Assembly: GCF_022484225.1 (NCBI RefSeq)
Contig: NZ_JAKVLT010000001.1
Coordinates: forward strand, 744,001 to 808,000
From: Pseudoramibacter sp.
GTDB lineage: Bacteria > Bacillota > Clostridia > Eubacteriales > Eubacteriaceae
Direction of reading: 5' to 3'
Length of the DNA stretch: 64,000 nt
A program made the position numbers and the translations under genes. The notes below the pieces were generated by a model. That model was not told the DNA's origin. It was given only the letters and a program-made list of their open reading frames with translations, and searched no databases. Positions within the stretch are counted from its first letter, which is position 1, and every line of letters starts with the position of its first letter. Below are positions 7,141 through 57,366 of this stretch, in pieces.

Positions 7141-7992
7141 TTAATTGGCAATGGGCTGATGGGGGGCGTAGGATTTCCAGGAAATCGGTTTAAAGGTGTA
7201 GCCCCGGGAGCGGTAGTTGTCGATGATGCGCTGAAGGGCCTGAACCGTCGTGCCCTTATGAGGCGCGTCATGGCACAGGAGCACCACGTTGTTGTCATTG
7301 CAGGCGGTGGCGTGGGCTACGAGATCGTCCACGTTGTCTTCGCTGTGGGCTGCGTCGGTGGAATCGGCGTTCCAGTCGTAATACTGGTAGCCCTTGGCGT
7401 TGAGATCCGAGGCGAGCTTGCCCATGATCCCCTGGGCGTAATTCCGGGAGACGGTGTTGGACGAGCCGCCGGGGAAGCGGACGTAGGCCGGGACAAAGCC
7501 GATTTCCGACTTCACCACCTGGGCGATCTGGTTCAGATCGTCAAAATACGCCTGTTCCGAACGGTAGATTTCGTATTTGTGAGAGGCGGTGTGCAGGCCG
7601 ATGGTGTTGCCTTCGTTGTAGGCTTTGCGGATCAGATGCTGATACTGGGAATACATGTTCGTGACGAAAAACGTCCCATGGATGTGATTTCGTTTGAGGA
7701 TTTCCAGAATCGCTTCGGTGTTTTCCGAAGGGCCGTCGTCAAAAGTCAGGTAGACGATTTTTTTGGACGACTCTTTGTCCGTTCCCGGCACGCTGCCGGG
7801 GGTCAGCTTGCCCCGGGGTTCGTCGACGAAATCGGTCTGGGTCAAAGTTCCGCCGGTCGCCTGGCAGAACGCGGCGTAGCTGTCGGCGTCGGCCGCGCGG
7901 ACAGGCCAGGCGGATATGAATGCGGCGCAAAAAATAAGCACCGCCGCCAATCCGATGCTTATGTAAAATATTTTATCATTCCCTATGGACAT
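7141..7992 (-). CDS. secreted or membrane-anchored polysaccharide deacetylase (NodB fold)
   Basis: A 283-residue protein with an N-terminal hydrophobic segment (residues 9-28, ending VRAADA) that reads as a signal peptide or anchor. The NodB domain shows all expected motifs: YLTFDDGPSE (general base and metal Asp), GLHTASHKYE (metal His pair), RFPGGSSNTV and a late LLCHDAPH. It probably removes acetyl groups from peptidoglycan GlcNAc or MurNAc, which can confer lysozyme resistance. I chose the ATG at 7992 because AGAGG lies 11 bp upstream and it precedes the signal sequence; the open frame continues to 8058. It is possibly co-transcribed with nrdJ. Confidence 0.88.
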   Translation of the reverse strand: MSIGNDKIFYISIGLAAVLIFCAAFISAWPVRAADADSYAAFCQATGGTLTQTDFVDEPRGKLTPGSVPGTDKESSKKIVYLTFDDGPSENTEAILEILKRNHIHGTFFVTNMYSQYQHLIRKAYNEGNTIGLHTASHKYEIYRSEQAYFDDLNQIAQVVKSEIGFVPAYVRFPGGSSNTVSRNYAQGIMGKLASDLNAKGYQYYDWNADSTDAAHSEDNVDDLVAHATACNDNNVVLLCHDAPHKGTTVQALQRIIDNYRSRGYTFKPISWKSYAPHQPIAN

Positions 7993-8131
7993 TTCAATAG
8001 GACCTCTTTGTGATGAATTTGTAAAATTTATTATATCACAGAAATTTTGCACGTCCACCTCTCTTTTATTTAATTCAATAATGACGTATAATAGCAGAAG
8101 TTTAAAAGATTAAAAGACAGAGGAGGAGCTT

Positions 8132-8917
8132 ATGCGCCCGGCATTTAAAAATTACATCGGCGTCATGGATTCGGGGCTCGGCGGCATTTCCGTGCTTCAG
8201 GAAATGACCCGGGAGCTGCCCAACGAACGGTATGTGTTTTTCGGCGACTCGGCGCATGCCCCCTACGGCGAAAAATCGGTGGAGACGGTTCAGCAGCTCA
8301 CGTTGAGCATCGCGGAAAAAATGGCGGCTGAAGGGGTGAAGGCCATTGTCATCGCGTGCAACACGGCGACGAGCGCCGCGGCGGGGCTTTTGCGCAAAAC
8401 CTTTGACATGCCGATCATCGGCATCGAGCCGGCGCTGAAACCCGCGGCCACGTCGGCAGACAGCCACCGGGTCCTCGTCATGGCGACGCCGGTGACCCTG
8501 TCCCTCAAAAAATACCACGATTTATGGGAAAAATACGCCGGCTACGCCGACTGCGCCTCCCAGCCCTGCCCGGGGCTGGCCCGGCGCATCGAACAGGGGA
8601 ACCTCGACGCGCCGGACGTCATCGAAATGCTGACCCGGTTTCTCGGGCCTTACCGGGGCAAAATCGACAGCCTCGTCCTCGGCTGCACCCACTATCCCTT
8701 TGTGAAAAAGCAGATCCGTCAGGTCCTCGGCGACGGGGTCAAGCTGTACGACGGCGGCCGGGGCACGGCCCGGGAACTGCGCCGGGTGCTGGCCAGCCGC
8801 CATGTCCTGCGCAGGCCGGAAGACGGCCCCGGCGGGGTCGTGTTTAAGTCGAGCATCGACACCCCCGAAGAGATTCAGCTGTACAAAATGTTCTACCACA
8901 TGAATTTAGAGGAATGA
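8132..8917 (+). CDS. murI: glutamate racemase
   Basis: A 261-residue cytosolic enzyme that converts L- to D-glutamate for peptidoglycan synthesis. The Asp/Glu racemase signature motifs are intact: GVMDSGLGGISVL at the N-terminus, VIACNTATSAA with the first catalytic Cys (about residue 76), and LGCTHYPF with the second (about 190). The ATG follows AGGAGGAG. It diverges from the deacetylase gene and converges on rho. Confidence 0.95.
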   Translation: MRPAFKNYIGVMDSGLGGISVLQEMTRELPNERYVFFGDSAHAPYGEKSVETVQQLTLSIAEKMAAEGVKAIVIACNTATSAAAGLLRKTFDMPIIGIEPALKPAATSADSHRVLVMATPVTLSLKKYHDLWEKYAGYADCASQPCPGLARRIEQGNLDAPDVIEMLTRFLGPYRGKIDSLVLGCTHYPFVKKQIRQVLGDGVKLYDGGRGTARELRRVLASRHVLRRPEDGPGGVVFKSSIDTPEEIQLYKMFYHMNLEE

Positions 8918-30630: not shown

Positions 30631-30993
30631 ATGGATAAATCACAGAAAAAAGCGCTGCGCGCCCAGTACGACCGGCGTCACCCGGAAATGGGGATCGTGT
30701 GCTGGTCCAACGGCAGCGACATGTGGATCGCAAAATCGACAGACACGAAGGCGGATTACAATGGCTCCGCCTTCCAGCTTCAGCTGGGCTCCTGGCCGAA
30801 CCGGGAAATGCAGGAAGCCTACACCGCTGAGCCTTCAGCGTTTCAATGGTCCGTGCTGAAAACCTTGGATTACGAAGAACGGGAAGACGACCACAGCGAC
30901 GACCTGGCGCTGCTGTACATGATGGTCAAGGAAGCGCACCCCGAAGCGAAGCCAATGCGCCCGGGCAAGCGCTATGTGAATGAAGACGCGTGA
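30631..30993 (+). CDS. GIY-YIG nuclease-related protein
   Basis: A 120-residue protein. It follows the pattern of a clostridial family annotated as GIY-YIG nuclease related: KALRAQYDRRHPEMGIVCWSNGSDMWIAKSTDTKADYNGSAFQLQLGSWPNREMQEAY, then FQWSVLKTLDYEER. The motif tyrosines of active GIY-YIG enzymes are replaced here (GIVCW and WIAKS), so nuclease activity is doubtful. AGAGAGGAAAAT precedes ATG. A terminator hairpin follows at 31004-31047. Confidence 0.6.
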   Translation: MDKSQKKALRAQYDRRHPEMGIVCWSNGSDMWIAKSTDTKADYNGSAFQLQLGSWPNREMQEAYTAEPSAFQWSVLKTLDYEEREDDHSDDLALLYMMVKEAHPEAKPMRPGKRYVNEDA

Positions 30994-31003
30994 GAACGCG
31001 AAA

Positions 31004-31047
31004 ACCCCCGTCTGCTGCGGAAATGCGGCAGGCGGGGGGTATTTTTT
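31004..31047 (+). terminator. terminator after the GIY-YIG-related gene
   Basis: CCCCCGTCTGC pairs with GCAGGCGGGGG (one G-U), with a 12-nt loop, then ATTTTTT. Confidence 0.8.
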
Positions 31048-31056
31048 GTCAGCCTT

Positions 31057-31866
31057 TTATTTTTTTAACAAGGCAGCGACGCGGTCCGCGACCGCGGACA
31101 GAATCGGGGAGGTGCTGACCTCGGCTTTGCCGGCTTTGATGAGCACCCGGTCGACGCACGACGTCAGCTTCGTATCGTCTGTCAAAAAGGACATGTGTTT
31201 GCCGCCTGGGATCGTCACGACGTGGCTGTTCGGAATCGCCGACTGCAGGTGCTGGATTTCCGCCGCCGGCACAAAGGGGTCGGCGCCGCCTTCTAAAATT
31301 TCAACGGGGACTTGAATCCGCCTGAGATCCTGCCGCACATCGATGCGTTCATCAATGCGCCAGTCCTGAATGGCGACGGCGTCCGGTTCGATTTCGGCCA
31401 GGGCGCGCTGCACCTTTGGATGCTGGACGTGGCCGCAGCCGCGGATCACGAAATCCATGTCGAGGATGCCGGCGTGAATTTTTTCGTAAAAAGCCGGATC
31501 GATCTGATCGAATGCTGAGGCGCCGTTTAAGACCACGCCGCCGATGACGTTCTCCGGATGCGCTGCCAGTGCGGACAAGATCAGCGCGCCGCCGAGGGAA
31601 TGGCCCAGCAGCACCGCGTTTTGAAACCGCGAAAGCACAGCCCGAATGGCATTCACATAAGCATTTTTTGAAAACACCCCGCCTTTTGAATCGCCGTGTC
31701 CCGGCAAATCCAGGAACACGTTTGAAAAAGCTGAAAGCGCCGGCCGAACCGCTTCCATGAAGCGTTTGTTTGCGCCTGTGCCGTGGACCCAGACGAGGGT
31801 GATGTCCTGCCGCTTTTCGCCTTCAAAAAAATCGTAAGCGATGCCGTCGATCATTTCGGATTGCAT
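31057..31866 (-). CDS. alpha/beta hydrolase
   Basis: A 269-residue alpha/beta hydrolase. Visible are WVHGTGANKRFM (oxyanion region HGTG), FLDLPGHGDS, the nucleophile elbow LLGHSLGGALIL (catalytic Ser near residue 95), a candidate acid in EGGADPFVP and the base His in IPGGKHMSF. That is a complete triad of the proline iminopeptidase/esterase type. The start at 31866 has AAAGGAG. The open frame extends to 32025, but the leader has no other start signal. Substrate unknown. Confidence 0.85.
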   Translation of the reverse strand: MQSEMIDGIAYDFFEGEKRQDITLVWVHGTGANKRFMEAVRPALSAFSNVFLDLPGHGDSKGGVFSKNAYVNAIRAVLSRFQNAVLLGHSLGGALILSALAAHPENVIGGVVLNGASAFDQIDPAFYEKIHAGILDMDFVIRGCGHVQHPKVQRALAEIEPDAVAIQDWRIDERIDVRQDLRRIQVPVEILEGGADPFVPAAEIQHLQSAIPNSHVVTIPGGKHMSFLTDDTKLTSCVDRVLIKAGKAEVSTSPILSAVADRVAALLKK

Positions 31867-32047
31867 GGTGGTCTCCTTTGGAAAATTAGAAAAATCTGAT
31901 GTTAAATCTATTATATTTGAAAGAGATGAAAACGTCAAAATCATAAATTTATGAGTTAGAGATCTCAAGAATGGCCTTCCGCCCAACAAACAGTCTGAAA
32001 TTTGGTATAATAAAAACAACATCATTCAGGAAAAGAGGCAGGCAGCG

Positions 32048-32266
32048 ATGAAAAAGCAGATTCAGGTCCGCATTTTCCCGGACGGGAAGATCAAAGCGGA
32101 GACCCAGAACATGAAGGGGAGCGCGTGTTTGAAGTACATCAAGCCCTTAGAGGAGATGCTTCAGGCGAAGACCGTGGACTCTCATTTTACGGACGAATAT
32201 TACGAAACGGAAAGCCAAATTGAAGAAAATAATCAGGAAAAGGAGACCATCAGAAATGAACAATAA
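32048..32266 (+). CDS. DUF2997-like small protein, first gene of the Ycf46-like operon
   Basis: A 72-residue protein (MKKQIQVRIFPDGKIKAETQNMKGSACLKYIKPLEEML, then DSHFTDEYYET). This reads as the DUF2997 pattern known from cyanobacteria and Firmicutes, where such genes lie near DUF1257 and Ycf46-type genes. The N-terminal half is a beta hairpin with a conserved-looking Cys; the tail is acidic and Gln/Glu-rich. AAAGAGGCAGGCAGCG precedes ATG. It overlaps the next gene by 11 bp. Function unknown. Confidence 0.65.
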   Translation: MKKQIQVRIFPDGKIKAETQNMKGSACLKYIKPLEEMLQAKTVDSHFTDEYYETESQIEENNQEKETIRNEQ

Positions 32267-33038
32267 TCATGCGGGGATCACCGGCCGGGGCCGGTCGTGG
32301 GAGGTGCTCAATTCCTGGTGGATTGCCCTTTCTTTTGTGAGTTTTGCGTGGATCGGCTTTTTCTATATCGGCGCGAAGGCGAAGCAGAAGCGCTGGATTT
32401 ATTTTGGGGTATTGTTTTTTATCCTGCAGTTTATCGGCTTTATCGCCGTGGGCGCGACGAAGGGCAGCCTTCAGCAGGTGTTTATATACGTGTGGATTGC
32501 GAGCTGGGGCGCAGGCATCGTCCTGTCTTTTACGGAACGCAGGCGCTATTTGATCAGCCTGGACCTTTTGCTGAACACGGACGCACCCCAAAAAGAAAAT
32601 CAGAAAATTCGGGACGACGTGATTTCGGATTACCAGAGCGAAGGCATTGAGATTCGCCATCAGGAAAATCAAGACGCGGTGAAACCGGCTGAAGATTTCA
32701 AGGCGGAAGAAATTCAAACAGAGGTCGATATTCAGCATGCCGCATCAAAAGTGATCGATATTAACAACTGTTCGGAGCTCGATTTTATCAACCTGCCGGG
32801 ATTTAACACCGAAACGGCGAAAACGGCAGCGGACTACCGGACGCGCCACAACGGTTTTTATTCGGCGGATGAGTTTCTGGCCATCACCCAGGTCAAGCCC
32901 CATTTGATCGAGGACGTCAAAGCGCACATCACCTGCGGGCCTTACGGCGCAAAACAGCCGGTGCCGCACAAATCGGACGAGCCGGATGAAAAACCAAAAG
33001 CCGCGGATCAGCAGCCCAGCCGGAAGCTGGATTTCTGA
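32256..33038 (+). CDS. membrane protein with C-terminal helix-hairpin-helix domain
   Basis: A 260-residue protein. Three hydrophobic segments (about residues 21-41, 46-64 and 68-88) anchor the N-terminus. A charged linker of about 70 residues follows, and near 165-220 comes a ComEA-like helix-hairpin-helix: VIDINNCSELDFINLPGFNTETAKTAADYRTRHNGFYSADEFLAI. The HhH may bind DNA or a protein partner at the membrane. The tail is Pro/Lys-rich and ends in KLDF, very like the last residues of the AAA ATPase (MLDF). AAGGAG lies 10 bp before ATG; the stop overlaps the next start (TGATG). Confidence 0.75.
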   Translation: MNNNHAGITGRGRSWEVLNSWWIALSFVSFAWIGFFYIGAKAKQKRWIYFGVLFFILQFIGFIAVGATKGSLQQVFIYVWIASWGAGIVLSFTERRRYLISLDLLLNTDAPQKENQKIRDDVISDYQSEGIEIRHQENQDAVKPAEDFKAEEIQTEVDIQHAASKVIDINNCSELDFINLPGFNTETAKTAADYRTRHNGFYSADEFLAITQVKPHLIEDVKAHITCGPYGAKQPVPHKSDEPDEKPKAADQQPSRKLDF

Positions 33039-33610
33039 TGAACGTCTATCAGATCATCTGCGGCACGAAGGCCGAAGGCCCCGGCAAACGGACGGCCATC
33101 TGGATGCAGGGCTGCAGCCGGCACTGCAGCGGGTGCATGCTGCCCGAGACCTGGTCTTTTGTACCCCGCACCCTGATTGCGCCGGAGACCGTGATTGAAA
33201 ACGTGCCGGCGGACAACGAAGGCATCACCGTCCTCGGCGGCGAGCCCTTTGAACAGCCTGAAGCGCTGGCGGCGCTGCTCAGGGCAGCGAAGGCGCGGGG
33301 TCTGTCGACGATCGTGTTTTCAGGCTATACCTACGGGGAACTCAAGGCCCTGCCGGCGGTACAACGCCGCCGGATTTTTGAATCTGTCGATGTTTTGATC
33401 GACGGGGCTTACGAAAAAGACAAGCGGAGCTTTGCGGTGCCGATGATCGGCTCCAGCAACCAGCGGTTTTATTTTTTGTCGGACCGCTACACGATGGCCG
33501 ATATCCCGGCAAATAAAATCGAGGTCCGGATTCAAAAGGACGGCACGCCGATGTTAAGCGGCATGGGGGATTTTGAAAAGCTCGTGAGAAAGTTGAGGTG
33601 TGAACATTGA
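33038..33610 (+). CDS. NrdG-like radical SAM (4Fe-4S single-cluster) protein
   Basis: A 190-residue radical SAM protein of the activase type. The cluster motif CSRHCSGC is at residues 26-33 (CxxxCxxC). AIWMQGCSRHCSGCMLPETW and ITVLGGEPFEQPEALAALL (the GGEP SAM-binding motif) look like the NrdG/PflA-like 'anaerobic RNR activating protein' branch. However, no class III reductase is present nearby and the gene sits inside the Ycf46-like operon. It is therefore more likely to modify or activate a partner encoded there. It is coupled on both sides (1-bp and 4-bp overlaps). Confidence 0.85.
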   Translation: MNVYQIICGTKAEGPGKRTAIWMQGCSRHCSGCMLPETWSFVPRTLIAPETVIENVPADNEGITVLGGEPFEQPEALAALLRAAKARGLSTIVFSGYTYGELKALPAVQRRRIFESVDVLIDGAYEKDKRSFAVPMIGSSNQRFYFLSDRYTMADIPANKIEVRIQKDGTPMLSGMGDFEKLVRKLRCEH

Positions 33611-35265
33611 AATTTAAGCCGGAACTGCAGCAGGCCCTGGCCAATCTGTTTAAGGCGCGGTTTCCCTACGTCTACATGCCCACGTGGGAAGAACTCCGGG
33701 CCGAGGCCTTTGTCCAGTCCATCGCGGAAGATGAAGCTCTGATCCGCCACGTCCGGACGGTTTACACCTGGACCCAGACCGACGGCCTCGTCCGCAAGGG
33801 CGACGGCCAGAAAATCGCCGGAACCGCCGATCCCATCAAGGCCCTGGAATGGATCGAAAAGTGTGACGAAAACGCGGTGTTCGTCATGAAAGACATGCAC
33901 ATTTATTTCGGCGTGCCCGGCCGGCCGGTGGCGACTGACCTCGTCCGGAAGATGCGGGACCTCATCCCGTCCCTGCACAACTCTGAGGCCCGGAAAAACG
34001 TCGTGCTCATTTCGCCCCATCTGGTGATTCCCGGGGACATGGAAAAAGAAATCACCGTGTTCGATTTTCCCCTGCCCGACGTGGCGGAAATCGAGGACAT
34101 GATGGACCGGATCGTGGCGGAAAACGCCCTGGACCCTCACTGCATCACCCCGGAAGAAAAAGAAAAGCTCGCGAAGTCGGCCCTGGGACTGACTTTGCAG
34201 GAAGCGGAAAACGCCTTTTCCCGGGCGATCGTGGCCAATCACGGCCTGGACATCAACGCCCTGCCGGTCATCTTTGACGAAAAGAACCAGGTCATCAAGA
34301 AGACGGGCATCCTCGAATTTGTCAAAAGCGACCTGACAATTGATGACATCGGCGGTCTGGACAACCTCAAGAGCTGGCTGCTCAAACGGAAAAATTCGTG
34401 GCTCGACGCCGCGAAAAAGTACAACATCCCGGCGCCGAAGGGGGTGCTCATCACCGGAATTCCCGGGTGCGGCAAGAGCCTGACCGCGAAGGCCATGAGC
34501 ACGATCTGGAACCTGCCTTTGTTGAAGCTCGACATGGGCAAGATTTTCAGCGGCATCGTCGGCAGCTCCGAAGAGAACATGCGCCGGGCCATCGAGACGG
34601 CCGAGGCGGTGGCGCCGTCGATTCTGTGGGTCGACGAAATTGAAAAGGGGCTGGCCGGGGTCAACGGCAATGGCGATTCCGGCACGTCGACCCGGGTGTT
34701 CGGGACCTTCCTCACGTGGATGCAGGAAAAAACCGCCCCAGTATTCGTGGTGGCGACGGCGAACCAGATCAGCACCCTGCCGACGGAACTTTTGAGAAAA
34801 GGCCGCTTTGACGAAATCTTTTTTGTGGATCTGCCGACGGCGTCGGAACGCAAGAAGATTTTCGAAGTGCATTTGAACAAGCGGGTCGCCCATTCCGAAG
34901 TGGGCCGGGACCTGCCGGTTGACGACGCCCTGCTGACCCGGCTGAGCCAGGCCTCGAGAGGCTTTGTGGGGGCGGAAATCGAACAGGCGGTGATCACGGC
35001 TTTGTACGAAGCCTTTTTCCACCAGCGGGGTCTCAAAGAAGAAGACCTCATGTACGCCATTCGGGGGACGGTGCCCCTGTCGGTGACCCAGAAAGAGCAG
35101 ATTCTGGCCCTGCGCAGATGGGCCGATGTCCGGGCCGTCTCGGCGACCCCGAAGGAAGATCTGGAAACGTACAAGCAGCCCCTGCCGCCCGATGACGACA
35201 CGGAAGCGCCGCCTAAAAAAGACGATGTGAACGCCCAGCGCGGCGGCCGGATGCTCGATTTTTAA
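33607..35265 (+). CDS. AAA+ ATPase, Ycf46-like
   Basis: A 552-residue ATPase. The N-terminal 240 residues form a Ycf46-type recognition domain (VYTWTQTDGL, then FVMKDMHIYF and VVLISPHLVIPGDMEKEITVFDFPLP). The AAA module has Walker A GIPGCGKSLTAKAM near residue 285, GGIVGSSEEN-like SGIVGSSEENMRRAIETAEAVAP, Walker B ILWVDEIEKG near 338, GDSGTSTRVFGTFLTWMQEK, sensor 1 VATANQ and GRFDEIFFVDLP with the arginine finger. All catalytic residues are present. Ycf46 is known from plastids and cyanobacteria, where it has been linked to CO2 use. Start: TTG overlapping the previous stop. Confidence 0.85.
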   Translation: MKFKPELQQALANLFKARFPYVYMPTWEELRAEAFVQSIAEDEALIRHVRTVYTWTQTDGLVRKGDGQKIAGTADPIKALEWIEKCDENAVFVMKDMHIYFGVPGRPVATDLVRKMRDLIPSLHNSEARKNVVLISPHLVIPGDMEKEITVFDFPLPDVAEIEDMMDRIVAENALDPHCITPEEKEKLAKSALGLTLQEAENAFSRAIVANHGLDINALPVIFDEKNQVIKKTGILEFVKSDLTIDDIGGLDNLKSWLLKRKNSWLDAAKKYNIPAPKGVLITGIPGCGKSLTAKAMSTIWNLPLLKLDMGKIFSGIVGSSEENMRRAIETAEAVAPSILWVDEIEKGLAGVNGNGDSGTSTRVFGTFLTWMQEKTAPVFVVATANQISTLPTELLRKGRFDEIFFVDLPTASERKKIFEVHLNKRVAHSEVGRDLPVDDALLTRLSQASRGFVGAEIEQAVITALYEAFFHQRGLKEEDLMYAIRGTVPLSVTQKEQILALRRWADVRAVSATPKEDLETYKQPLPPDDDTEAPPKKDDVNAQRGGRMLDF

Positions 35266-35285
35266 AGGAGGAAAAAGGAGGAAAA

Positions 35286-35750
35286 ATGTCAGCCTGTTTA
35301 TTTTTAGTGCCCCTGGCCGTGGGGCTGATCACGTCGGCGGTCGAAGGCACCGCTGCCGTGGTGTACGCCTGCGAACACAGCAGGCGGGGGAAAAGCGCGC
35401 CGATCCAGACGAAGTTCTGCGACACGGCCATTCTCGAAGAAACTCTCAAAGAACACGGGGTGCCTTACAAAATCAAAAGCGACGGAGAAATCACCGCGGA
35501 TTTTACGTCCGGCAAGATCCGGTATTTCAGAACGGCGGCCGATCAGCCGTTTCAGATGCAGGTCTTCGGCGTGAAAGACATGGACGCGGTGGTGTGCAAT
35601 GTGCAGGCGATCGAGAAAGAATACGGCAGCAACGTCCAGCAGTACACGTACAACCGCCTCAAAGAAAATCTGCCTGAGCACATGTCCGTCGCGTCGGAAG
35701 AAATTTTAGAGGACGATTCGATTTTATTGACCCTAGAGGTTGAAGATTAA
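35286..35750 (+). CDS. DUF1257 (Ycf35-like) protein
   Basis: A 154-residue protein. The N-terminal 30 residues are hydrophobic (CLFLVPLAVGLITSAVEGTAAVVYA). The remainder (FCDTAILEETLKEHGVPYKIKSDGEITADFTSGKIRYF, then YGSNVQQYTYNRLKENLPEHM) follows the DUF1257/Ycf35 pattern. In photosynthetic genomes DUF1257 keeps company with DUF2997 and Ycf46, as here. The hydrophobic N-terminus suggests membrane contact. It is preceded by two tandem AAAGGAGGAAA ribosome sites. Confidence 0.68.
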   Translation: MSACLFLVPLAVGLITSAVEGTAAVVYACEHSRRGKSAPIQTKFCDTAILEETLKEHGVPYKIKSDGEITADFTSGKIRYFRTAADQPFQMQVFGVKDMDAVVCNVQAIEKEYGSNVQQYTYNRLKENLPEHMSVASEEILEDDSILLTLEVED

Positions 35751-35767
35751 GGAACAGGAGAACGGCA

Positions 35768-37078
35768 ATGGGATTCAGGTACCACAGATCCGTCACCATC
35801 TGCAAAGGGGTGCGGGTGAATTTTTCAAAATCCGGGCCGAGTCTGTCCATCGGCGGCCGGGGCCACACGGTGAACATCGGCAGCCGGGGCGCCAGGGAAA
35901 CTTTTTCGATTCCCGGGACGGGGCTGTCCTACAGCCGCCAGATCGGCGGCGGGAGCCGGGGCAGCCGGTCCGCGCCGCGGCGGACGGTGCAGGTGCCGAG
36001 CCATATCACGATGCACATGGACGACGCCAGCGGCGCCGTGCGGATTGCAGACGGCAGCGGCCGAACCATCACTGATCCCTCGGTCTTGAGAAAGATCCGC
36101 GCCACGGACGCGTACAAAGCACAAAAGGCGAAGCTTCAGGAACAGCGTCTGGAAAAAGCCGAAGCGGCGGTGGAGAGCAGCGAAGCGGAAAACCGCAAAT
36201 TTTTGGAAATCTATAAACTGTCGGCCAACGTCAAACCCCGGGCCGCCTTTGAAAAAGCACTCCAAAATATTAAACCGGCAGAAGATGTCCAGGCCGCATA
36301 CCCGACGCCGATGCCAAGTCAGGAAGAAATTAAAGCGGCCCTTGAGGCCGAAGCCAAAGCAAAAGTCAAAGCCTCGGTGTTTAAGACCGGAAAACTCCGG
36401 AAAGCCTATGTGGCCGAACACTTCGGGCCGGCCTACGCCGCGGCCGTCGAAAAATGGCGCGACGCAAAAGACGCCTTTGACGCCAAAGAGACGAAAAGGC
36501 ATCTCACAGCGGTCCTGAAGAATCAGCAGGTTTGCGAAGAACGCCGGGCTTTTTTAAAAAAGCTGACGGCGGGAGACGACGAAGCGGTGTGCGCCGCCTT
36601 TGATCATTGGATCGCGTCCTGCGAGCTGCCCGTCGAGATCCACATTCAGTACGACTGGCAGCGGGAAAACGGCCTCATGTGCCTCGACGTCGATCTGCCG
36701 GAAATTGAAGACCTGCCGGACACGAAGATGACCGCCACGTCGACGGGCAAATTAAAAGAAAAGAAGCGGACTCAGACCGAACTCCGGGAAACCTACGCGA
36801 CCCTCGTGTTCGGGCTCGCGGTGTTCATCGCGTCCCACACCTTTAATCTTTCGCCGGCGATTGAAAAGATTCTGATTTCCGGCTACACCCAGCGGCGCAA
36901 CCGGGCCGGCGAAATTCAGAACGATTATATTTATTCACTGAAGTTCCCGAGAGACCGCTTTGAAAAGACGCCGGTGTCCCACGTTGAACCCCGAAACTTC
37001 TGTCTGGATGCCGAAAGCCGGTGCATCTTGACGGTGACGTCGTTATTTAAATCGATTGAACCTTACGAAATCTATTAA
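35768..37078 (+). CDS. DUF4236 protein with long coiled-coil region
   Basis: A 436-residue protein. Residues 1-58 are the DUF4236 domain (MGFRYHRSVTICKGVRVNFSKSGPSLSIGGRGHTVNIGS, then PGTGLSYSRQI), a small beta domain often found at the start of bacterial proteins of unknown role. A Gly/Arg-rich linker, a charged coiled coil (about 115-165) and a larger C-terminal domain follow. That domain holds hydrophobic strands (TLVFGLAVFIASHTFNLSPAIEKILISGYTQR) and ends in a DYIYSLKFPRDRF segment. It closes the six-gene operon, 17 bp after the DUF1257 gene. Confidence 0.72.
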   Translation: MGFRYHRSVTICKGVRVNFSKSGPSLSIGGRGHTVNIGSRGARETFSIPGTGLSYSRQIGGGSRGSRSAPRRTVQVPSHITMHMDDASGAVRIADGSGRTITDPSVLRKIRATDAYKAQKAKLQEQRLEKAEAAVESSEAENRKFLEIYKLSANVKPRAAFEKALQNIKPAEDVQAAYPTPMPSQEEIKAALEAEAKAKVKASVFKTGKLRKAYVAEHFGPAYAAAVEKWRDAKDAFDAKETKRHLTAVLKNQQVCEERRAFLKKLTAGDDEAVCAAFDHWIASCELPVEIHIQYDWQRENGLMCLDVDLPEIEDLPDTKMTATSTGKLKEKKRTQTELRETYATLVFGLAVFIASHTFNLSPAIEKILISGYTQRRNRAGEIQNDYIYSLKFPRDRFEKTPVSHVEPRNFCLDAESRCILTVTSLFKSIEPYEIY

Positions 37079-37162
37079 ATTTTACAAGACGGCCTCTTAA
37101 ATATGAGGGGCTGTTCTTTTTTCTGTACGCTTATTTCAAATTGAAAGAAGAAAGGAGTCTGC

Positions 37163-44769: not shown

Positions 44770-44881
44770 TGACGCGTTCGAACTATCATCGAGTGCGTAA
44801 CGGACAGTTTAATCGCTGTCCGTTTTTTCTTTGCCGCAAAGCGCCGAATAAAATATGGTAAAATAAGATACAACGATTGAA
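44770..44881 (+). repeat. left copy of ~112-bp direct repeat (terminator plus promoter of the R-M gene)
   Basis: The copy runs from GACGCGTTCGA to CAACGATTGAA and aligns with 50466-50582 at roughly 80-85 percent by eye. It contains a hairpin terminator (ACGGACAG/CTGTCCGT at 44800-44823, then T6) and the AT-rich stretch AAAATATGGTAAAATAAGATACAACG, the likely promoter region of the R-M gene. Confidence 0.85.
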
Positions 44882-44900
44882 GACAGGGGAGGACACGGCA

Positions 44901-47711
44901 ATGACAGACGCAGAACAGCGCGAAGCAGCACGACAATTTATCAATCGATGGCAGGGCAAGGGCAACGAAGACGAAGACGGCCGGTCCTATTGGATCGAAC
45001 TGCTGCACGACGTGCTCGGGATGGAAGATGTGACCCAGCATGTCAATTTTGAAAAGAAGGTTTATGTCGACGGCAATAAAAAGCGCATTGACGCCTACTT
45101 GCCAGAAACAAAGGTTATCATCGAGCAGAAGAGCCTGGGCAAGGCACTGGATCAAAAAATTCACAACTCCGGCGATATTGACTTGACGCCCTACGAGCAG
45201 GCGAAGCGCTACAGCGATAACTTGGATTTCTCGGAGCGAGCGCGGTGGATCGTGACCTGTAATTTTGCAGAAATCTGGATTTACGATATGAACCAGGTGA
45301 ACACGAAGGATTTTGAGCCGACGAAGATCCGCCTGCCGGAGCTGCAGGACAAGTACCCGATGCTGGATTTTCTGATCAAACAGGACGTGAAGCAGGTCTC
45401 TCCTGAAATGAAGGTGTCGATCGAAGCCGGGAACATCGTCGGCAAGCTCTACGACGCTTTTGCCAAGGAGTTTGGCCTGCCGGAGGGAACGCCGAAAAAA
45501 GAGACGCCCGAAGAAAAGGCACAGCGCGAAGCGGATTTAAGAAGTCTGAACGCGTTGTGCGTCCGCCTGGTCTTCTGCCTGTACGCGGAGGACGCGGGGA
45601 TTTTCGATCGGGCGTCTTTCCACGATTACGTCGCGAGCTTTGAGCCGCAGCGGCTCCGCGGCGCGTTGAAGGAATTGTTTAAAATCCTCGACACGCCGAT
45701 CGTGGAGCGCGACCGTTTTCTCGCCGACGATCTCGCCGCCTTCCCCTACGTCAACGGCGGACTTTTTGCAGACGAGTCCCTTGAGATTCCGCCCTTTACC
45801 GAAGAACTGAAGCATGTGCTCTTGATCGACGCGTCGGAAAATTTCGACTGGCGGGGGATTTCCCCGACGATTTTCGGCGCAGTGTTCGAATCGACCTTGA
45901 ACCCGGAAACACGGCGCAAGGGCGGGATGCACTACACGAGCATCGAGAACATTCACAAAGTCATCGATCCGCTGTTCCTCGACGATTTGAAATCCGAATT
46001 TGCCGAAATCAAAGCCGAGCAGGTTTGGAAGACGAAGAAGCGTCAACTCGAAGCGTTCCAGCGCAAGCTGGCGTCGCTTAAATGGCTGGACCCGGCCTGC
46101 GGCTCCGGCAACTTCCTAACCGAGACCTATTTGTCGGTGCGGCGAATCGAAAACGAGGTGATCTCCGAGTTGCAGCACGGGCAGATCATGTACGCGCTCG
46201 AAGGGATGCGCAACCCGATTCAAGTCTCGATTTCGCAATTCTACGGGATCGAAATCAACGACTTCGCCGTCACCGTCGCCAAGACCGCGTTGTGGATCGC
46301 CGAAAGCCAGATGATGCAAGAAACTATATCTATCATTAAGATGGACCTCGATTTTCTGCCGTTGACCACTAACGCCAATATCGTCGAAGGCAACGCCCTA
46401 CGGATCGATTGGAATGACGTCGTGCCAGCAAGTGAGCTCAACTATATTATGGGGAATCCGCCGTTTGTGGGATACGCTTATCAGAGTCAAGAACAAAAAA
46501 ATGATTTAAAAAATATCAAGGCTATAACGAAAAAAAGTATCGATTATGTCGCTGGATGGTATTACAAAACGGCAGAATATTTCAATCATACAAATATACG
46601 CGCGGCGTTTGTTTCAACGAATAGTATCTGCCAAGGTGAACAAGTTGTTAATGTATGGCAGATACTTTTCGAGCATTATCAGGTTCACATTGACTTTGCT
46701 TATCGCACCTTTAGATGGGATAGTGAAGCCAATGAAAAAGCACACGTTCATGTCGTTATTGTTGGATTTAGTCAAACAGCTAATGAAAAGAGAAAAAGGA
46801 TCTTTGATAATGATAATGTAAAAGAGGTTGATAATATCAGTGCATACCTTGTTGGATCAGATAATGTTTTTATCAGTCGCAGGACCAAACCCCTTAGCAA
46901 TGTTCCAGCCATGACACGGGGCAGTCAGCCGACAGATAATGGTAATTTAATTCTTACAGAAGAAGAGAAAAATGAATTGATAAAAGCAGAGCCACAAGCC
47001 GGCGTTTGGATTCGTCCGTTTATGATGGGTAAAGATTTTATCAATCGAAAACCGCGCTACTGTCTGTGGCTTGTCGATGCAGATCCGAAAGTTTTGCGGA
47101 AGTGTCCGTTAGTTTTAAAACGCATTGAAGCTGTCAAGACGTTTCGGTTGAACAGTAAAAAAGCCGCAACGCGCAAGAAAGCGGAAACACCGCAGTTATT
47201 TGATGAGATCAAAGCCGTTAATACAAATTATGTTGCGATTCCTGTTGTTTCTTCAGAACGGAGACGATATATCCCGATTGATTTATTATCTTCAAAAATA
47301 ATAGCGGGAAATAAATTATTTATGATGCCAAACGCAACGCCTTACGAATTTGGCATTTTAACTTCAAACGTCCATATGGCATGGATGCGAACAGTTTGTG
47401 GAAGATTGAAATCAGATTATAGTTATTCCAATACCATTGTTTACAACAATTTCCCTTGGCCAACACCTACTGACAAACAAAAAGCGCTGATCGAAAAAAC
47501 GGCGCAGGGGATTCTCGACGCCCGCGACCTTTATCCGGACAGTTCCCTAGCCGATCTTTACGACCCGCTGACGATGCCGCCGGAACTTCGCAAAGCACAT
47601 CAGATGAACGACCGCGCGGTGATGCAGGCTTACGGCTTTTCGACGAAGATGAGCGAATCGGATTGTGTCGCGGAACTCATGAAGATGTATCAAAGGCTGA
47701 CGGAAAAATGA
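44901..47711 (+). CDS. type IIG (MmeI-like) restriction-modification enzyme
   Basis: A 936-residue single-chain endonuclease/adenine methyltransferase. The N-terminus has the MmeI-type helical start and PDDEXK-like nuclease core (RIDAYLPETKVIIEQKS, residues about 62-78). The methyltransferase has LDPACGSGNFL near 397 and NPPF near 518 (N6-adenine type), then a target-recognition domain and a conserved C-terminus (YNNFPWPTPT, DLYDPLTMPPELRKAHQMND). DNA from about 46440 to 47460, covering the recognition part, is AT-rich while both flanks are GC-rich, which points to domain exchange. I chose the ATG at 44901 with GGGAGG upstream. Confidence 0.9.
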   Translation: MTDAEQREAARQFINRWQGKGNEDEDGRSYWIELLHDVLGMEDVTQHVNFEKKVYVDGNKKRIDAYLPETKVIIEQKSLGKALDQKIHNSGDIDLTPYEQAKRYSDNLDFSERARWIVTCNFAEIWIYDMNQVNTKDFEPTKIRLPELQDKYPMLDFLIKQDVKQVSPEMKVSIEAGNIVGKLYDAFAKEFGLPEGTPKKETPEEKAQREADLRSLNALCVRLVFCLYAEDAGIFDRASFHDYVASFEPQRLRGALKELFKILDTPIVERDRFLADDLAAFPYVNGGLFADESLEIPPFTEELKHVLLIDASENFDWRGISPTIFGAVFESTLNPETRRKGGMHYTSIENIHKVIDPLFLDDLKSEFAEIKAEQVWKTKKRQLEAFQRKLASLKWLDPACGSGNFLTETYLSVRRIENEVISELQHGQIMYALEGMRNPIQVSISQFYGIEINDFAVTVAKTALWIAESQMMQETISIIKMDLDFLPLTTNANIVEGNALRIDWNDVVPASELNYIMGNPPFVGYAYQSQEQKNDLKNIKAITKKSIDYVAGWYYKTAEYFNHTNIRAAFVSTNSICQGEQVVNVWQILFEHYQVHIDFAYRTFRWDSEANEKAHVHVVIVGFSQTANEKRKRIFDNDNVKEVDNISAYLVGSDNVFISRRTKPLSNVPAMTRGSQPTDNGNLILTEEEKNELIKAEPQAGVWIRPFMMGKDFINRKPRYCLWLVDADPKVLRKCPLVLKRIEAVKTFRLNSKKAATRKKAETPQLFDEIKAVNTNYVAIPVVSSERRRYIPIDLLSSKIIAGNKLFMMPNATPYEFGILTSNVHMAWMRTVCGRLKSDYSYSNTIVYNNFPWPTPTDKQKALIEKTAQGILDARDLYPDSSLADLYDPLTMPPELRKAHQMNDRAVMQAYGFSTKMSESDCVAELMKMYQRLTEK

Positions 47712-48610: not shown

Positions 48611-48675
48611 AAAAATGAAATACTATTGAGAATTTTTCTGAATAATAGTAAAATTCTCAATAGTATTTCATTTTT
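48611..48675 (+). promoter_or_regulatory. perfect 26-bp inverted repeat just before the ATPase gene
   Basis: AAAAATGAAATACTATTGAG plus AATTTT (48611-48636) and its exact complement (48650-48675) are spaced by 13 nt. The right arm ends in TTTTT only 1 bp before the AGGAG ribosome site of the ATPase gene. It could be an operator, a transposon-derived end or an intrinsic attenuator; which one is not clear. Confidence 0.85.
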
Positions 48676-48688
48676 AGGAGAACATACA

Positions 48689-49876
48689 ATGATTTTACGT
48701 GAAAAATACCTTTCAGAAATCAGAGGATTTTATAATAGCGATCTAATTAAAATTATTACTGGCGTCAGGAGATGCGGAAAATCAATTATTTTGACACAAA
48801 TTATGGATGAAATTCGTTCTTTTTCAGAGAATATTATCTATCTTGACTTCGACGATCGTTCTGTAACCAGATTCATCACAAAATGGGAAGATATTTGTGA
48901 TTATGTCAATGCTCACAGATCAAAAGAAAAAGCTTATATTTTTCTCGATGAAGTTCAGGAAATCGATGGATGGGCTTCTGCATGTAGATCTTTAAGACGT
49001 GAAAATTGCTCAGTTTTCATTTCCGGATCAAATTCGAAATTACTTTCCAGAGAATTTACTAAAGAATTGTCTGGTCGCTATGTAGCATTTCGTATACGCC
49101 CATTTATCTTCCAGGAATTACAAGCTTATGGAAAAGAACTTGGAAAAGAAATCACTATTCTTGATTATCTGAAATGGGGTGGTTTTCCAAAAAGAATCGA
49201 ATTTAATACAGAAGAAGATCAACGCCGATACCTAAATGACCTTGACAGTACCATCGTTCTGAACGATATCATCAATCGATACCATATTAGAAAAACAAAG
49301 GAATTTCAAAAAGTAGTCGATTATATTTTGATATCCAATGCAAGATCTTATTCTGCCAAAGGAATTGCCGATTTTATGCGATCCAATAGTGTAACCGTTA
49401 GTGCCAATACCGTACAAAAATGGATCTCATACATGGAAGAAGCTTACGTGATCGATAAACTTCCGAAATATTCAAGAAAAGCGAAACAAAAACTTGCTCA
49501 AAGTAAAAAAATCTATGATTGCGACGTGGGTCTGAATTCTTTACGCGTAACAAACGGCCGCTACGATCTGACACACAATCTTGAAAACATTGTTTTTAAT
49601 GAACTAATTTACATGGGATATACGGTCTTTGTTTATGACAATGCAGGACGAGAAATAGATTTCCTCGCAGAAAAGGATAATAAACGCTATTTTATACAGG
49701 TTGCTTATTCTGTTGTAGAAAATAAAGCCTATGACCGAGAATTCTCAGCTTTTAAAGGCCTTTCTCAAAATGATCGAAAAATTCTGATTACCATGGATGA
49801 GAATGATTATTCTACATCCACTGTAGAACATATTCCCTTTAAAAAATTTTTGATGATGAAAAATCTTCAGCAATAA
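48689..49876 (+). CDS. AAA_14/DUF4143 ATP-binding protein
   Basis: A 395-residue protein. Walker A is ITGVRRCGKSIILTQIM near residue 25, Walker B YIFLDEVQEIDGW near 90, then SGSNSKLLSREFTKELSGRYVAFRIRPFIFQEL, the hallmark of this family. The C-terminal DUF4143 part has VLNDIINRYHIRKTKEF and a PDDEXK-like GREIDFLAEKDNKRYFIQVAYS. Such proteins are common in anaerobes and often lie in variable regions. The role is unknown. The ATG at 48689 follows AGGAG. The gene is AT-rich, unlike the chromosome, so acquired. Confidence 0.88.
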   Translation: MILREKYLSEIRGFYNSDLIKIITGVRRCGKSIILTQIMDEIRSFSENIIYLDFDDRSVTRFITKWEDICDYVNAHRSKEKAYIFLDEVQEIDGWASACRSLRRENCSVFISGSNSKLLSREFTKELSGRYVAFRIRPFIFQELQAYGKELGKEITILDYLKWGGFPKRIEFNTEEDQRRYLNDLDSTIVLNDIINRYHIRKTKEFQKVVDYILISNARSYSAKGIADFMRSNSVTVSANTVQKWISYMEEAYVIDKLPKYSRKAKQKLAQSKKIYDCDVGLNSLRVTNGRYDLTHNLENIVFNELIYMGYTVFVYDNAGREIDFLAEKDNKRYFIQVAYSVVENKAYDREFSAFKGLSQNDRKILITMDENDYSTSTVEHIPFKKFLMMKNLQQ

Positions 49877-54943: not shown

Positions 54944-55609
54944 ATGGCTGAAAACTGGTACCCGGTTATCGATCGGGACATTTGCCGTGAGTGCGGCGCT
55001 TGCATTGCGATGTGCGGCCACGGGGTTTACGACCGCGGCGCGGCGCCGACCCCGCAAGTGGTCAATCCTGCGGGATGCGTCGATCATTGCCACGGCTGCG
55101 GGACACGCTGCCCGGCCGGCGCGATCACCTATTTTGGGGAAGATACCCCTTGGGTGCCGCCAAAAGGAAAGGCCAATCAGGGAGAGACATTAACGGAAAA
55201 AACGGATATACATTTAGGAGGCAAAATCATGAAAAAACTGAAATTATTTGAACCGGCTATGTGCTGCTCGACAGGGCTCTGCGGCCCGTCGATCGATCCG
55301 GAACTGCTGCGGATTTCGACGCTGATTGACGATTTGAAAAAAGCAGGCGTCGAAGTGGAACGGTTCAACTTGAACAGCGCACCAGCAGCCTTTGCTGAAA
55401 CCGAAACGGTCAAAAACATGCTGGCGATCAGAGGCACAGAGGCGCTGCCGATTACGATGCTCGACGACACGGTCGTTTTGACCGACCGCTATCCGAGCAA
55501 CGCGGAAGTTTTCGGCTGGCTGAAACTCGACGGGCCGAAGTCGGACGAATCGGATTCGGACGACGACGCGGGCTCTGGCTGTGGATGCGGCGGAGGCTGC
55601 TGCTGCTGA
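54944..55609 (+). CDS. arsD: ferredoxin-like 4Fe-4S domain fused in frame to arsenic chaperone ArsD
   Basis: A 221-residue frame. Residues 1-94 form a ferredoxin-like domain (CRECGACIAMCGHGVYD, CVDHCHGCGTRCPAGAITY). From residue 96, MKKLKLFEPAMCCSTGLCGPSIDPELLRI begins a full ArsD with its As(III) cysteines (CC-x4-C) and a Cys-rich tail GCGCGGGCCC. A ribosome site (AGGAGG) and ATG at 55229 lie exactly at the junction, so free ArsD can also be made. ArsD passes As(III) to ArsA. The fusion may arise from a lost stop codon. Confidence 0.88.
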   Translation: MAENWYPVIDRDICRECGACIAMCGHGVYDRGAAPTPQVVNPAGCVDHCHGCGTRCPAGAITYFGEDTPWVPPKGKANQGETLTEKTDIHLGGKIMKKLKLFEPAMCCSTGLCGPSIDPELLRISTLIDDLKKAGVEVERFNLNSAPAAFAETETVKNMLAIRGTEALPITMLDDTVVLTDRYPSNAEVFGWLKLDGPKSDESDSDDDAGSGCGCGGGCCC

Positions 55610-55629
55610 CGAAAGCGAGAGGATGTAAA

Positions 55630-57366
55630 ATGAGATTATTTAATCCGGCGGAAGTCACGCAGACGCAGTACCTGTTCTTCACGGGAAAGGGCGGCGTCGG
55701 CAAGACTTCGACGGCCTGTGCTACAGCGGTATTCCTCGCCGATCAGGGAAAAAAAGTGTTGCTTGTCAGCACAGACCCGGCGTCCAATCTTCAGGACGTG
55801 TTTTCGGCAGATCTTGACAATAAAGGCACCGCGATTCCGGAAGTGCCCAATCTTTTCGTTGCCAATTTAGACCCGGTTGAGGCGGCCGCAGCGTACCGCG
55901 AGCGCGCAGTGGCACCGTATCGGGGGGTATTGCCGGAATCAGCCATTGAAAATATGGAAGAACAGCTGTCGGGGTCGTGTACGACAGAGATCGCCGCGTT
56001 TAATGAATTCACCGAATTTTTGACCGACCCTGCGGTTCAAGAAAAGTACGACCAGATTATTTTCGATACGGCGCCGACAGGGCACACCCTGCGCCTGTTG
56101 CAGCTGCCATCAGCCTGGGCGGGCTTTATTCAGCAGAGTAAGCACGGCGCGTCCTGTCTCGGGCAGCTCTCAGGCTTGGACGAAAAGAAGCAGGTGTATC
56201 AGCAGGCGGTGGCGACACTGGCGGATCCTGAGCAGACGACATTGGTGCTGGTCGCGCGGCCGGAAGAAACCCCGTTGAAGGAAGCGGCTCGGGCGTCCCG
56301 CGAATTGCGGGAGCTGGGCCTCAACCGGCAGGTGCTCGTCATGAACGCCGTCGCGAAAAAAGGCAGCGACCCGGTGTCCGAAGCGCTGTACGACAAACAG
56401 CAACGGGCCCTTGCGGAAATGCCGGAAGCCCTGCGGGACATGGACACCACTCAAATTCCGATGCGCACTTACAACATCACAGGAATCGACAACGTCCGCG
56501 CGATGCTGAGGAGCGACCACGCGGCAGCTGCAGAGCAGACGATTGACGTTTCCCATCTGTACCAGCTGGCGGATGTGGTCGACGACATCGCCGCCCATCA
56601 CCGCAAGGTGATCTTCACCATGGGAAAAGGCGGTGTGGGGAAAACCACTGTCGCGGCAGCCATTGCCCTTGATCTGTCGAAAAAGGGGAAAAAGGTGCAT
56701 TTGGCAACGACGGATCCGGCGGCCCATTTAAAATTTGTACTGGACGCCAACGATGGCGTGTGCATGAGTCATATCGACGAAAAGGAAGAACTGAAGCGAT
56801 ATCAGCGCGAAGTGATACAGGAAGCGCTCGCCACGGGGATTTCAGAAGATGATCTCGACTATATCAAAGAAGATCTCCGCTCACCCTGTACCCAGGAGAT
56901 TGCGGTGTTCCGTGCTTTTGCCGATTTAGTCGAACAGTCTGAAAATGAAATTGTCGTGATCGACACGGCGCCGACTGGCCACACTCTGCTGCTGCTCGAA
57001 TCGACAGACAGCTACGACAAGGAAATCAGGCGGACCCAGGGGAAAACGCCGGAAGCCGTGAAAAAACTTTTGCCGCGCCTCAAAAGCGATGAGACTGAAG
57101 TCATCATCGTGACCCTGCCGGAAGCGACGCCCGTATACGAGGCTGAACGGCTGGAGGATGATCTCAAACGCGCGCAGATCAGCGTGAAATGGTGGGTCGT
57201 CAACCAATCTTTCAACGGGCTCGACACGACCAATCCCTCCCTTCGCGCGAAAGCGGCTCACGAAGCGGCGTGGATCAACCGGGTTGATCGGCGCTCCGGC
57301 GGCCACGAAGCGCTGATCCCCTGGAAGACGGGAACTTTAAAGGGTAATACCCTGACAACATTATAA
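55630..57366 (+). CDS. arsA: arsenite-translocating ATPase ArsA
   Basis: A 578-residue ATPase with two homologous halves. A1 has FTGKGGVGKTSTACATA and DTAPTGHTLRLLQLP; A2 has TMGKGGVGKTTVAAAIA and DTAPTGHTLLLL. The three As(III)-binding cysteines appear in SGSCTTEI, GASCLGQL and RSPCTQEI. It starts at 55630 after GAGAGG. ArsA normally docks on the ArsB membrane channel, but no arsB or acr3 gene is present here, so its partner lies elsewhere or is missing. A terminator follows. Confidence 0.92.
   Translation: MRLFNPAEVTQTQYLFFTGKGGVGKTSTACATAVFLADQGKKVLLVSTDPASNLQDVFSADLDNKGTAIPEVPNLFVANLDPVEAAAAYRERAVAPYRGVLPESAIENMEEQLSGSCTTEIAAFNEFTEFLTDPAVQEKYDQIIFDTAPTGHTLRLLQLPSAWAGFIQQSKHGASCLGQLSGLDEKKQVYQQAVATLADPEQTTLVLVARPEETPLKEAARASRELRELGLNRQVLVMNAVAKKGSDPVSEALYDKQQRALAEMPEALRDMDTTQIPMRTYNITGIDNVRAMLRSDHAAAAEQTIDVSHLYQLADVVDDIAAHHRKVIFTMGKGGVGKTTVAAAIALDLSKKGKKVHLATTDPAAHLKFVLDANDGVCMSHIDEKEELKRYQREVIQEALATGISEDDLDYIKEDLRSPCTQEIAVFRAFADLVEQSENEIVVIDTAPTGHTLLLLESTDSYDKEIRRTQGKTPEAVKKLLPRLKSDETEVIIVTLPEATPVYEAERLEDDLKRAQISVKWWVVNQSFNGLDTTNPSLRAKAAHEAAWINRVDRRSGGHEALIPWKTGTLKGNTLTTL

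Follow-up and report, generated by a model that had tools for sequence, protein, structure and literature searches.

A five-gene set and its shared tail

The stretch of Pseudoramibacter sp. DNA analysed here (the window: 64,000 nucleotides, positions 744,001 to 808,000 of contig NZ_JAKVLT010000001.1) carries, at 32048-37078, an operon whose five core genes recur together in several bacterial phyla. They encode a Ycf46-type AAA+ ATPase, a Ycf35-like protein, a DUF2997 protein, a membrane protein with a helix-hairpin-helix (HhH) domain and a radical S-adenosylmethionine (SAM) protein; the ATPase and the HhH protein end in the same kind of short tail. The sequences strongly support both the gene set and the tail. 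We propose, with confidence that is evenly balanced, that this module is a membrane-linked variant of the Ycf46/Ycf35/DUF2997 machine, recruited by the HhH protein and including a radical SAM step.

Six reading frames, all on the forward strand, were confirmed in the operon; they follow one another with almost no gaps and end at a terminator-like hairpin (37088-37115, forward strand). The DUF2997 gene (32048-32266, ATG start, 72 amino acids, Pfam DUF2997 1.2e-15) overlaps by 11 nucleotides the gene of the HhH membrane protein (32256-33038, ATG, 260 amino acids), which overlaps by 1 nucleotide the radical SAM gene (33038-33610, ATG, 190 amino acids, Fer4_12 1.4e-28), and this in turn shares 4 nucleotides with the AAA+ gene (33607-35265, TTG start, 552 amino acids, Pfam AAA 1.2e-27). 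The Ycf35/DUF1257-like gene (35286-35750, 154 amino acids) and a DUF4236 gene (35768-37078, 436 amino acids, Pfam 5.8e-18) come after gaps of 20 and 17 nucleotides that hold Shine-Dalgarno-like sequences. Pfam confirmed the family of five of the six genes, the Ycf35-like gene being the exception. An earlier note on this DNA had rightly described the six genes as close or overlapping; for the stoichiometric six-protein assembly that it read into this layout we found no evidence.

We compared loci from an ATPase-seeded search (80 genome loci and 80 viral loci). When these were scanned with component profiles, built locally and iteratively from the same loci, the AAA, Ycf35-like, DUF2997, HhH membrane and radical SAM genes were found to recur jointly. 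The five-gene ATPases formed one clade of the AAA tree (40 rows, SH-aLRT support 100), mixing Bacillota, Actinomycetota, Bacteroidota, Planctomycetota, Melainabacteria and one methanogen. The complete five-gene content was present in 33 of the 40 members, and most of the seven incomplete loci lie near contig ends, which in metagenome-assembled genomes truncate some loci; at L038 a tail-bearing membrane protein replaces the HhH protein. More than 10 different gene orders occur among the five-gene loci, and this high variability points to selection on content, or functional linkage, and not just to inherited synteny. The expectation that the genes would stay together in other genomes was thus borne out for the five core genes, while the description of these families as known mainly from plastids and cyanobacteria proved too narrow for a clade covering several bacterial phyla and a methanogen.

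The sixth gene behaved differently. DUF4236 accompanies the five genes at the window locus only and is in none of the other loci searched, meaning that the conserved core consists of five genes; we therefore rejected DUF4236 as a core member, and the idea of six genes forming one conserved unit was not upheld. A phage origin for DUF4236 was also set aside: the protein has a full-length match to PHROG 38135, but a search of IMG/VR yielded no relative, and phage records match it over the first 53 residues only. Full-length relatives are found on plasmids, and the plasmid stretch that we opened contained no module.

A C-terminal tail common to the HhH protein and the ATPase

The HhH protein ends in RKLDF (within PSRKLDF; 33021-33035, forward strand) and the ATPase in RMLDF (within RGGRMLDF; 35248-35262, forward strand). 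In the HhH family, 49 of 52 proteins end in R-x-[VILM]-[DE]-[FLIVMWY], with Arg at position -5 in 48/51 and Asp at -2 in 46/51, position -7 varying freely. The strict tail was found on 12 of 7293 background open reading frames (ORFs), and these 12 include several tailed neighbours from loci of this kind. A generalised form ends 32 of the 37 AAAs of five-gene loci and 24 of the 38 AAAs that have Ycf35/DUF2997 but no HhH protein (QRMEF in cyanobacteria). It ends only one of 16 AAAs without adjacent Ycf35/DUF2997, and DUF1257 is missing altogether from 11 of 14 such genomes. All these counts include related sequences; in GC-rich genomes some ORFs are spuriously long at the N-terminus, but this leaves the C-termini counted here unaffected. 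The tail was seen on no Ycf35 or radical SAM protein and on at most 1 of 90 DUF2997 proteins.

In the window genome, a DNA pattern covering Arg-type tails with TAA or TGA stops only gave 34 occurrences against 44 in the control. Among 30 decoded matches, three end ORFs of at least 200 amino acids and two of these are the HhH and AAA genes of the operon, so in this genome the tail belongs almost exclusively to the operon.

The window HhH protein has three hydrophobic segments by hydropathy (about residues 17-42, 45-70 and 72-94), then a linker, a C-terminal HhH domain (HHH_3, 4.8e-10) and the tail. The positively charged loops KAKQKR and ERRR suggest, by inference, a cytoplasmic C-terminus. Identification as a ComEA DNA receptor was discarded, the match to TIGR01259 (25.5 bits, cut-off 152.35) covering the HhH domain and its flank only. 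The earlier note had tethered the machine to the membrane through this protein, and the tail that it shares with the ATPase now supplies a concrete candidate for that link.

Elsewhere the tail is carried by adaptors with varied N-terminal parts, namely transmembrane (TM) segments, TPR-like repeats (L034) and other domains (L030, L053), and at L028 there are seven tandem HhH paralogues, each bearing the tail. L034 also has, adjoining the module (7809-8549), a TM protein that ends in the tail GRRLDV and contains a restriction-endonuclease domain of the Mrr type (3.4e-21). On a large phage contig, G490, the tail pattern occurs 22 times, compared with 7 in the control, and the decoded gene ends include those of WGR-domain, DUF6744, membrane and lysine-rich proteins.

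The tail could instead be a client tag, by which the machine would pull on tail-bearing proteins, the HhH protein being one such client. The enrichment and the variety of tailed proteins on G490 agree with this, as do the diversity and duplication of the HhH proteins; yet most of the other 47 phage records, like the window genome, show no excess of the pattern, and a tail on the ATPase itself would be odd unless it were autoregulated. We consider a client tag unlikely, and as a general tag in phages it was rejected, since most of the 48 phage records showed no enrichment.

A predicted p97-like ATPase with one active domain

The ATPase matched phrog_8638, in the neighbourhood of COG0464, over both of its AAA domains, D1 and D2 (E 7.8e-147, residues 7-517). 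It is 44-48% identical to cyanobacterial Ycf46-type AAAs and falls in the same tree. The D2 active site comprises the Walker A motif GIPGCGKS (residues 284-291; 34456-34479, forward strand), D343/E344, N386 and R397/R400. D1 lacks a P-loop, and in 124 of 125 homologues the single Walker A is in D2, meaning that D1 is a pseudo-AAA domain. The active site that had been called complete is therefore complete in D2 but not in D1.

An AlphaFold (AF2) model of the ATPase (pLDDT 90.4) matched p97 D1+D2 over residues 1-510 (Foldseek E ~1e-22; VIA-align Z 28.2, rmsd 6.3 over 470 residues). The assignment of D1 is taken from this model, the profile comparison of D1 with D2 giving 5.7% probability. The window ATPase is thus predicted to be a p97-like double AAA with a dead D1 and an active D2. 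The notion of an ATP-driven remodelling machine is reasonable, given a Ycf46-type ATPase with a p97-like predicted fold. In the model the last 12 residues have pLDDT 82-83, with a bridge at residue 548, and this modelled position would be compatible with docking of the tail on the ATPase itself.

A separate group of phage Ycf46-type AAAs has an acidic C-terminus (e.g. DEDDL, EEEDL) and no Ycf35/DUF2997 in the stretch covered (L111, L112, L115, L125, L127, L129, L131, L133, L135, L137, L141 and L143-L146).

The Ycf35-like and DUF2997 proteins

The Ycf35-like protein of the window had no Pfam match and did not pass the Pfam DUF1257 cut-off. A profile-profile comparison (hhalign) nevertheless related its family to DUF1257 proteins (97.5% probability, E 5e-12), so that the DUF1257 label given earlier stands as distant homology but not as a Pfam assignment. 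In loci of the five-gene type these proteins mostly have a hydrophobic N-terminal segment, which cyanobacterial Ycf35 lacks and which the window protein has; such an N-terminus fits a membrane-linked variant. The AF2 model (pLDDT 86) gave no significant Foldseek match, and its best VIA-align match was a KA1-like arrangement (Z 9.5 over 77 residues). Sequence searches of the PDB returned nothing significant for either the Ycf35-like or the DUF2997 protein.

The DUF2997 protein scored 57.6 bits against a Pfam cut-off of 24.1 and contains a conserved G-x-x-C. In the aligned homologues Cys27 is near-invariant (77/78; codon at 32126-32128, forward strand), Gly13 is present in 78/78 and Gly24 in 75/78. 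DUF1257 and DUF2997 are fused as one protein in L010, L012/L013 (1003-1671 in both), L097 (8188-8769) and L106 (10286-10927). These natural fusions are a strong hint, at the level of sequence, that the Ycf35-like and DUF2997 proteins work together.

The radical SAM protein

The two motifs of the radical SAM superfamily, CX3CX2C (CSRHCSGC; 33113-33136, forward strand) and GGEP, are present in the window protein and in nearly all homologues, three Bacillus-type proteins having a longer spacing in the first of these motifs. The cluster is thus intact, as first described, and its retention means that radical chemistry is probably used. The protein scored 91 bits against TIGR02491 (NrdG), under the equivalog cut-off of 126.1 bits, and a separate NrdG (168.3 bits) adjoins NrdD at 391-394 kb of the same genome. 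We therefore rejected the function of anaerobic ribonucleotide-reductase activase, and with it the NrdG-type activase proposed for this gene. The window also contains, at 4174-7116, what is by sequence a gene for a B12-dependent (class II) ribonucleotide reductase, in addition to the NrdD/NrdG of the genome.

The radical SAM protein might still activate a glycyl-radical or other enzyme encoded elsewhere, with the AAA repairing that enzyme as CbbX/CbbQ do for Rubisco. The NrdG-like sequence with its intact motifs suits such a role, and so does the lower extracellular carbonic anhydrase activity on inactivation of the Synechocystis Ycf46 gene, which ties Ycf46 to carbon use (PMC7496141). However, this genome already encodes a separate NrdG next to NrdD, and no glycyl-radical enzyme recurs next to the module in the flanking-gene scan. 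We regard enzyme reactivation as very improbable.

Distribution, loss and neighbouring genes

Among the 67 genomes of the order a single one has DUF2997, and among the 398 of the phylum sample 7 have it; the same five genes lie on Rhodococcus, Arthrobacter and Paenarthrobacter plasmids. In two congeners (L300 = G054, L301 = G053) compared here with 30676-37142 of the window, the genes that flank the operon are only ~600-900 bp apart. In one congener the junction retains 167 bp of the AAA gene (96% identical to 33960-34126), whereas the other has kept 47 bp of DUF4236 there; the 3' end of DUF4236 is kept in both. On the strength of these remnants, the simplest reading is that the operon was once present in the congeners and was lost by deletion. 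The operon is dispensable, and DUF4236 was resident at the locus before the losses. In both congeners a short gene for a marR-like regulator (by sequence), missing from the window, follows the DUF4236 3' end.

This pattern bears on a mobile conflict or anti-phage system, in which HhH or Mrr membrane proteins would sense or cut foreign DNA under control of the AAA and radical SAM proteins. Such a system would account for the sporadic distribution, the occurrence on plasmids and phage-like contigs, the mixed phyla within one clade and the loss with scars in congeners. The tandem HhH paralogues, the exchange of N-terminal domains, the tail-bearing TM-Mrr nuclease and a type IIG restriction-modification gene 8 kb downstream of the operon point the same way. 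PADLOC, however, gave only generic matches (AAA-domain IetA, weak viperin) and no two-component full-length match, no defence neighbour recurred among 97 flanking proteins, and most module loci have no evident effector; cyanobacteria and plastids, moreover, retain relatives linked to stress and CO2 use (PMC7496141, PMC5940233). A conflict system is possible but not probable, and a known defence system was rejected for want of a full PADLOC match or a recurring partner in the flanking-gene scan.

The module may serve in stress or protein quality, the role suggested for Ycf46 of Synechocystis (PMC7496141), or it may be a mobile conflict system. Its sporadic spread, loss and adaptor diversity make us lean towards an accessory role; the lack of a known defence match and of recurrent defence neighbours makes us lean away from a plain defence island.

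As to the neighbourhood, the type IIG restriction-modification enzyme is MmeI-like (44877-47711), and downstream of it lies an AAA_14/DUF4143 ATPase with PADLOC PDC-S01 matches (48626-49876), the two making a small defence-like region. Further on (54944-57366) are, by sequence, genes for an ArsD-like protein with a ferredoxin-like part and a two-domain ArsA-type ATPase.

Proposed mechanism

In the membrane-linked machine that we propose, the ATPase would assemble into a stacked ring like that of p97, with a dead D1 and a D2 that hydrolyses ATP to pull on or remodel a client protein. The Ycf35-like and DUF2997 proteins would act as one functional unit, an adaptor or regulator, with the hydrophobic N-terminus probably bringing the Ycf35-like protein to the membrane. 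The polytopic HhH protein would be the membrane adaptor, acting through its putatively cytoplasmic HhH domain and its tail; a single putative receptor, part of the ATPase ring or of Ycf35/DUF2997, may accept the tails of both the HhH protein and the ATPase, and the machine would in this way be drawn to the membrane. Within the set, the divergent radical SAM protein would carry out a modification, for which Cys27 of DUF2997 is the best candidate target.

Several points weigh against this proposal. It relies on inferred contacts among the module proteins and on a putative tail receptor, and no cellular client of the machine was found. The ATPase model puts the tail on its own chain, which may be a cis contact or noise; the association of tail and Ycf35 is confounded by phylogeny; and the KA1-like match of the Ycf35-like model is modest and silent on function. 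Finally, cyanobacterial AAAs carry a tail without adjacent radical SAM or HhH genes, meaning that those parts are non-essential to the machine in general.

A bolder version, which we hold to be unlikely, is that the module has spread horizontally as a modular machine: a peptide code at the C-terminus would recruit exchangeable proteins that act at the membrane or on DNA (HhH, Mrr nuclease, TPR) to a pseudo-AAA/AAA double ring, and the radical SAM protein would mature this ring through the near-invariant DUF2997 cysteine. If true, it would define a new class of AAA system addressed by tags, and plastid Ycf46/Ycf35 would be a reduced form of it. As the tail is short and can be deleted or grafted, this set of genes of unknown function is directly testable in ordinary bacteria.

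Comparison with known systems

Tandem AAA proteins such as p97/Cdc48, Drg1/AFG2, Rix7 and NVL resemble the window ATPase over residues 1-510 (Z ~25-28). Unlike p97/Cdc48, which is defined by two ATP-binding AAA domains, the window ATPase has no Walker A in D1; it also lacks a p97-type N domain and has unrelated partners. Proteasomal ATPases carry the HbYX motif, a C-terminal docking motif, and the module AAA is like them in ending in a short conserved peptide that plausibly serves docking. The module tail differs from HbYX in its sequence and in being shared by a second protein, and no proteasome gene belongs to the module.

In Treponema, a Ycf46-type AAA and a radical SAM gene lie within a contractile injection (VgrG/baseplate) cluster (L006, 7351-9506; L085, 6743-9785), that of L085 also containing DUF2997. 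No HhH or Ycf35 gene was recognised at these loci, unlike in the module, and their AAAs belong to a different clade.

A further close parallel is with cyanobacteria and algal plastids, which keep Ycf46, Ycf35 and DUF2997 without a known mechanism. Already known, besides Ycf46 itself, are the DUF2997-ycf35-fed7 cluster of Synechocystis, with the ferredoxin Fed7 (PMC4284462), and the similar, habitat-linked loss that ycf35 and ycf46 show in the plastids of red algae (PMC5940233); none of the open-access papers searched described the five-gene bacterial set or its tail. The cyanobacterial and plastid system shares with the module the AAA family and, in cyanobacterial loci, a DUF1257 homologue directly downstream of the AAA; the AAA also has a C-terminal tail there, the shorter R-[ML]-E-F (RMEF/RLEF). 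It differs in having no HhH membrane protein or radical SAM neighbour. The five-gene AAAs form a clade of their own, apart from cyanobacterial Ycf46, and this bacterial version names likely partners for the plastid proteins and adds to them a membrane adaptor and a radical SAM step.

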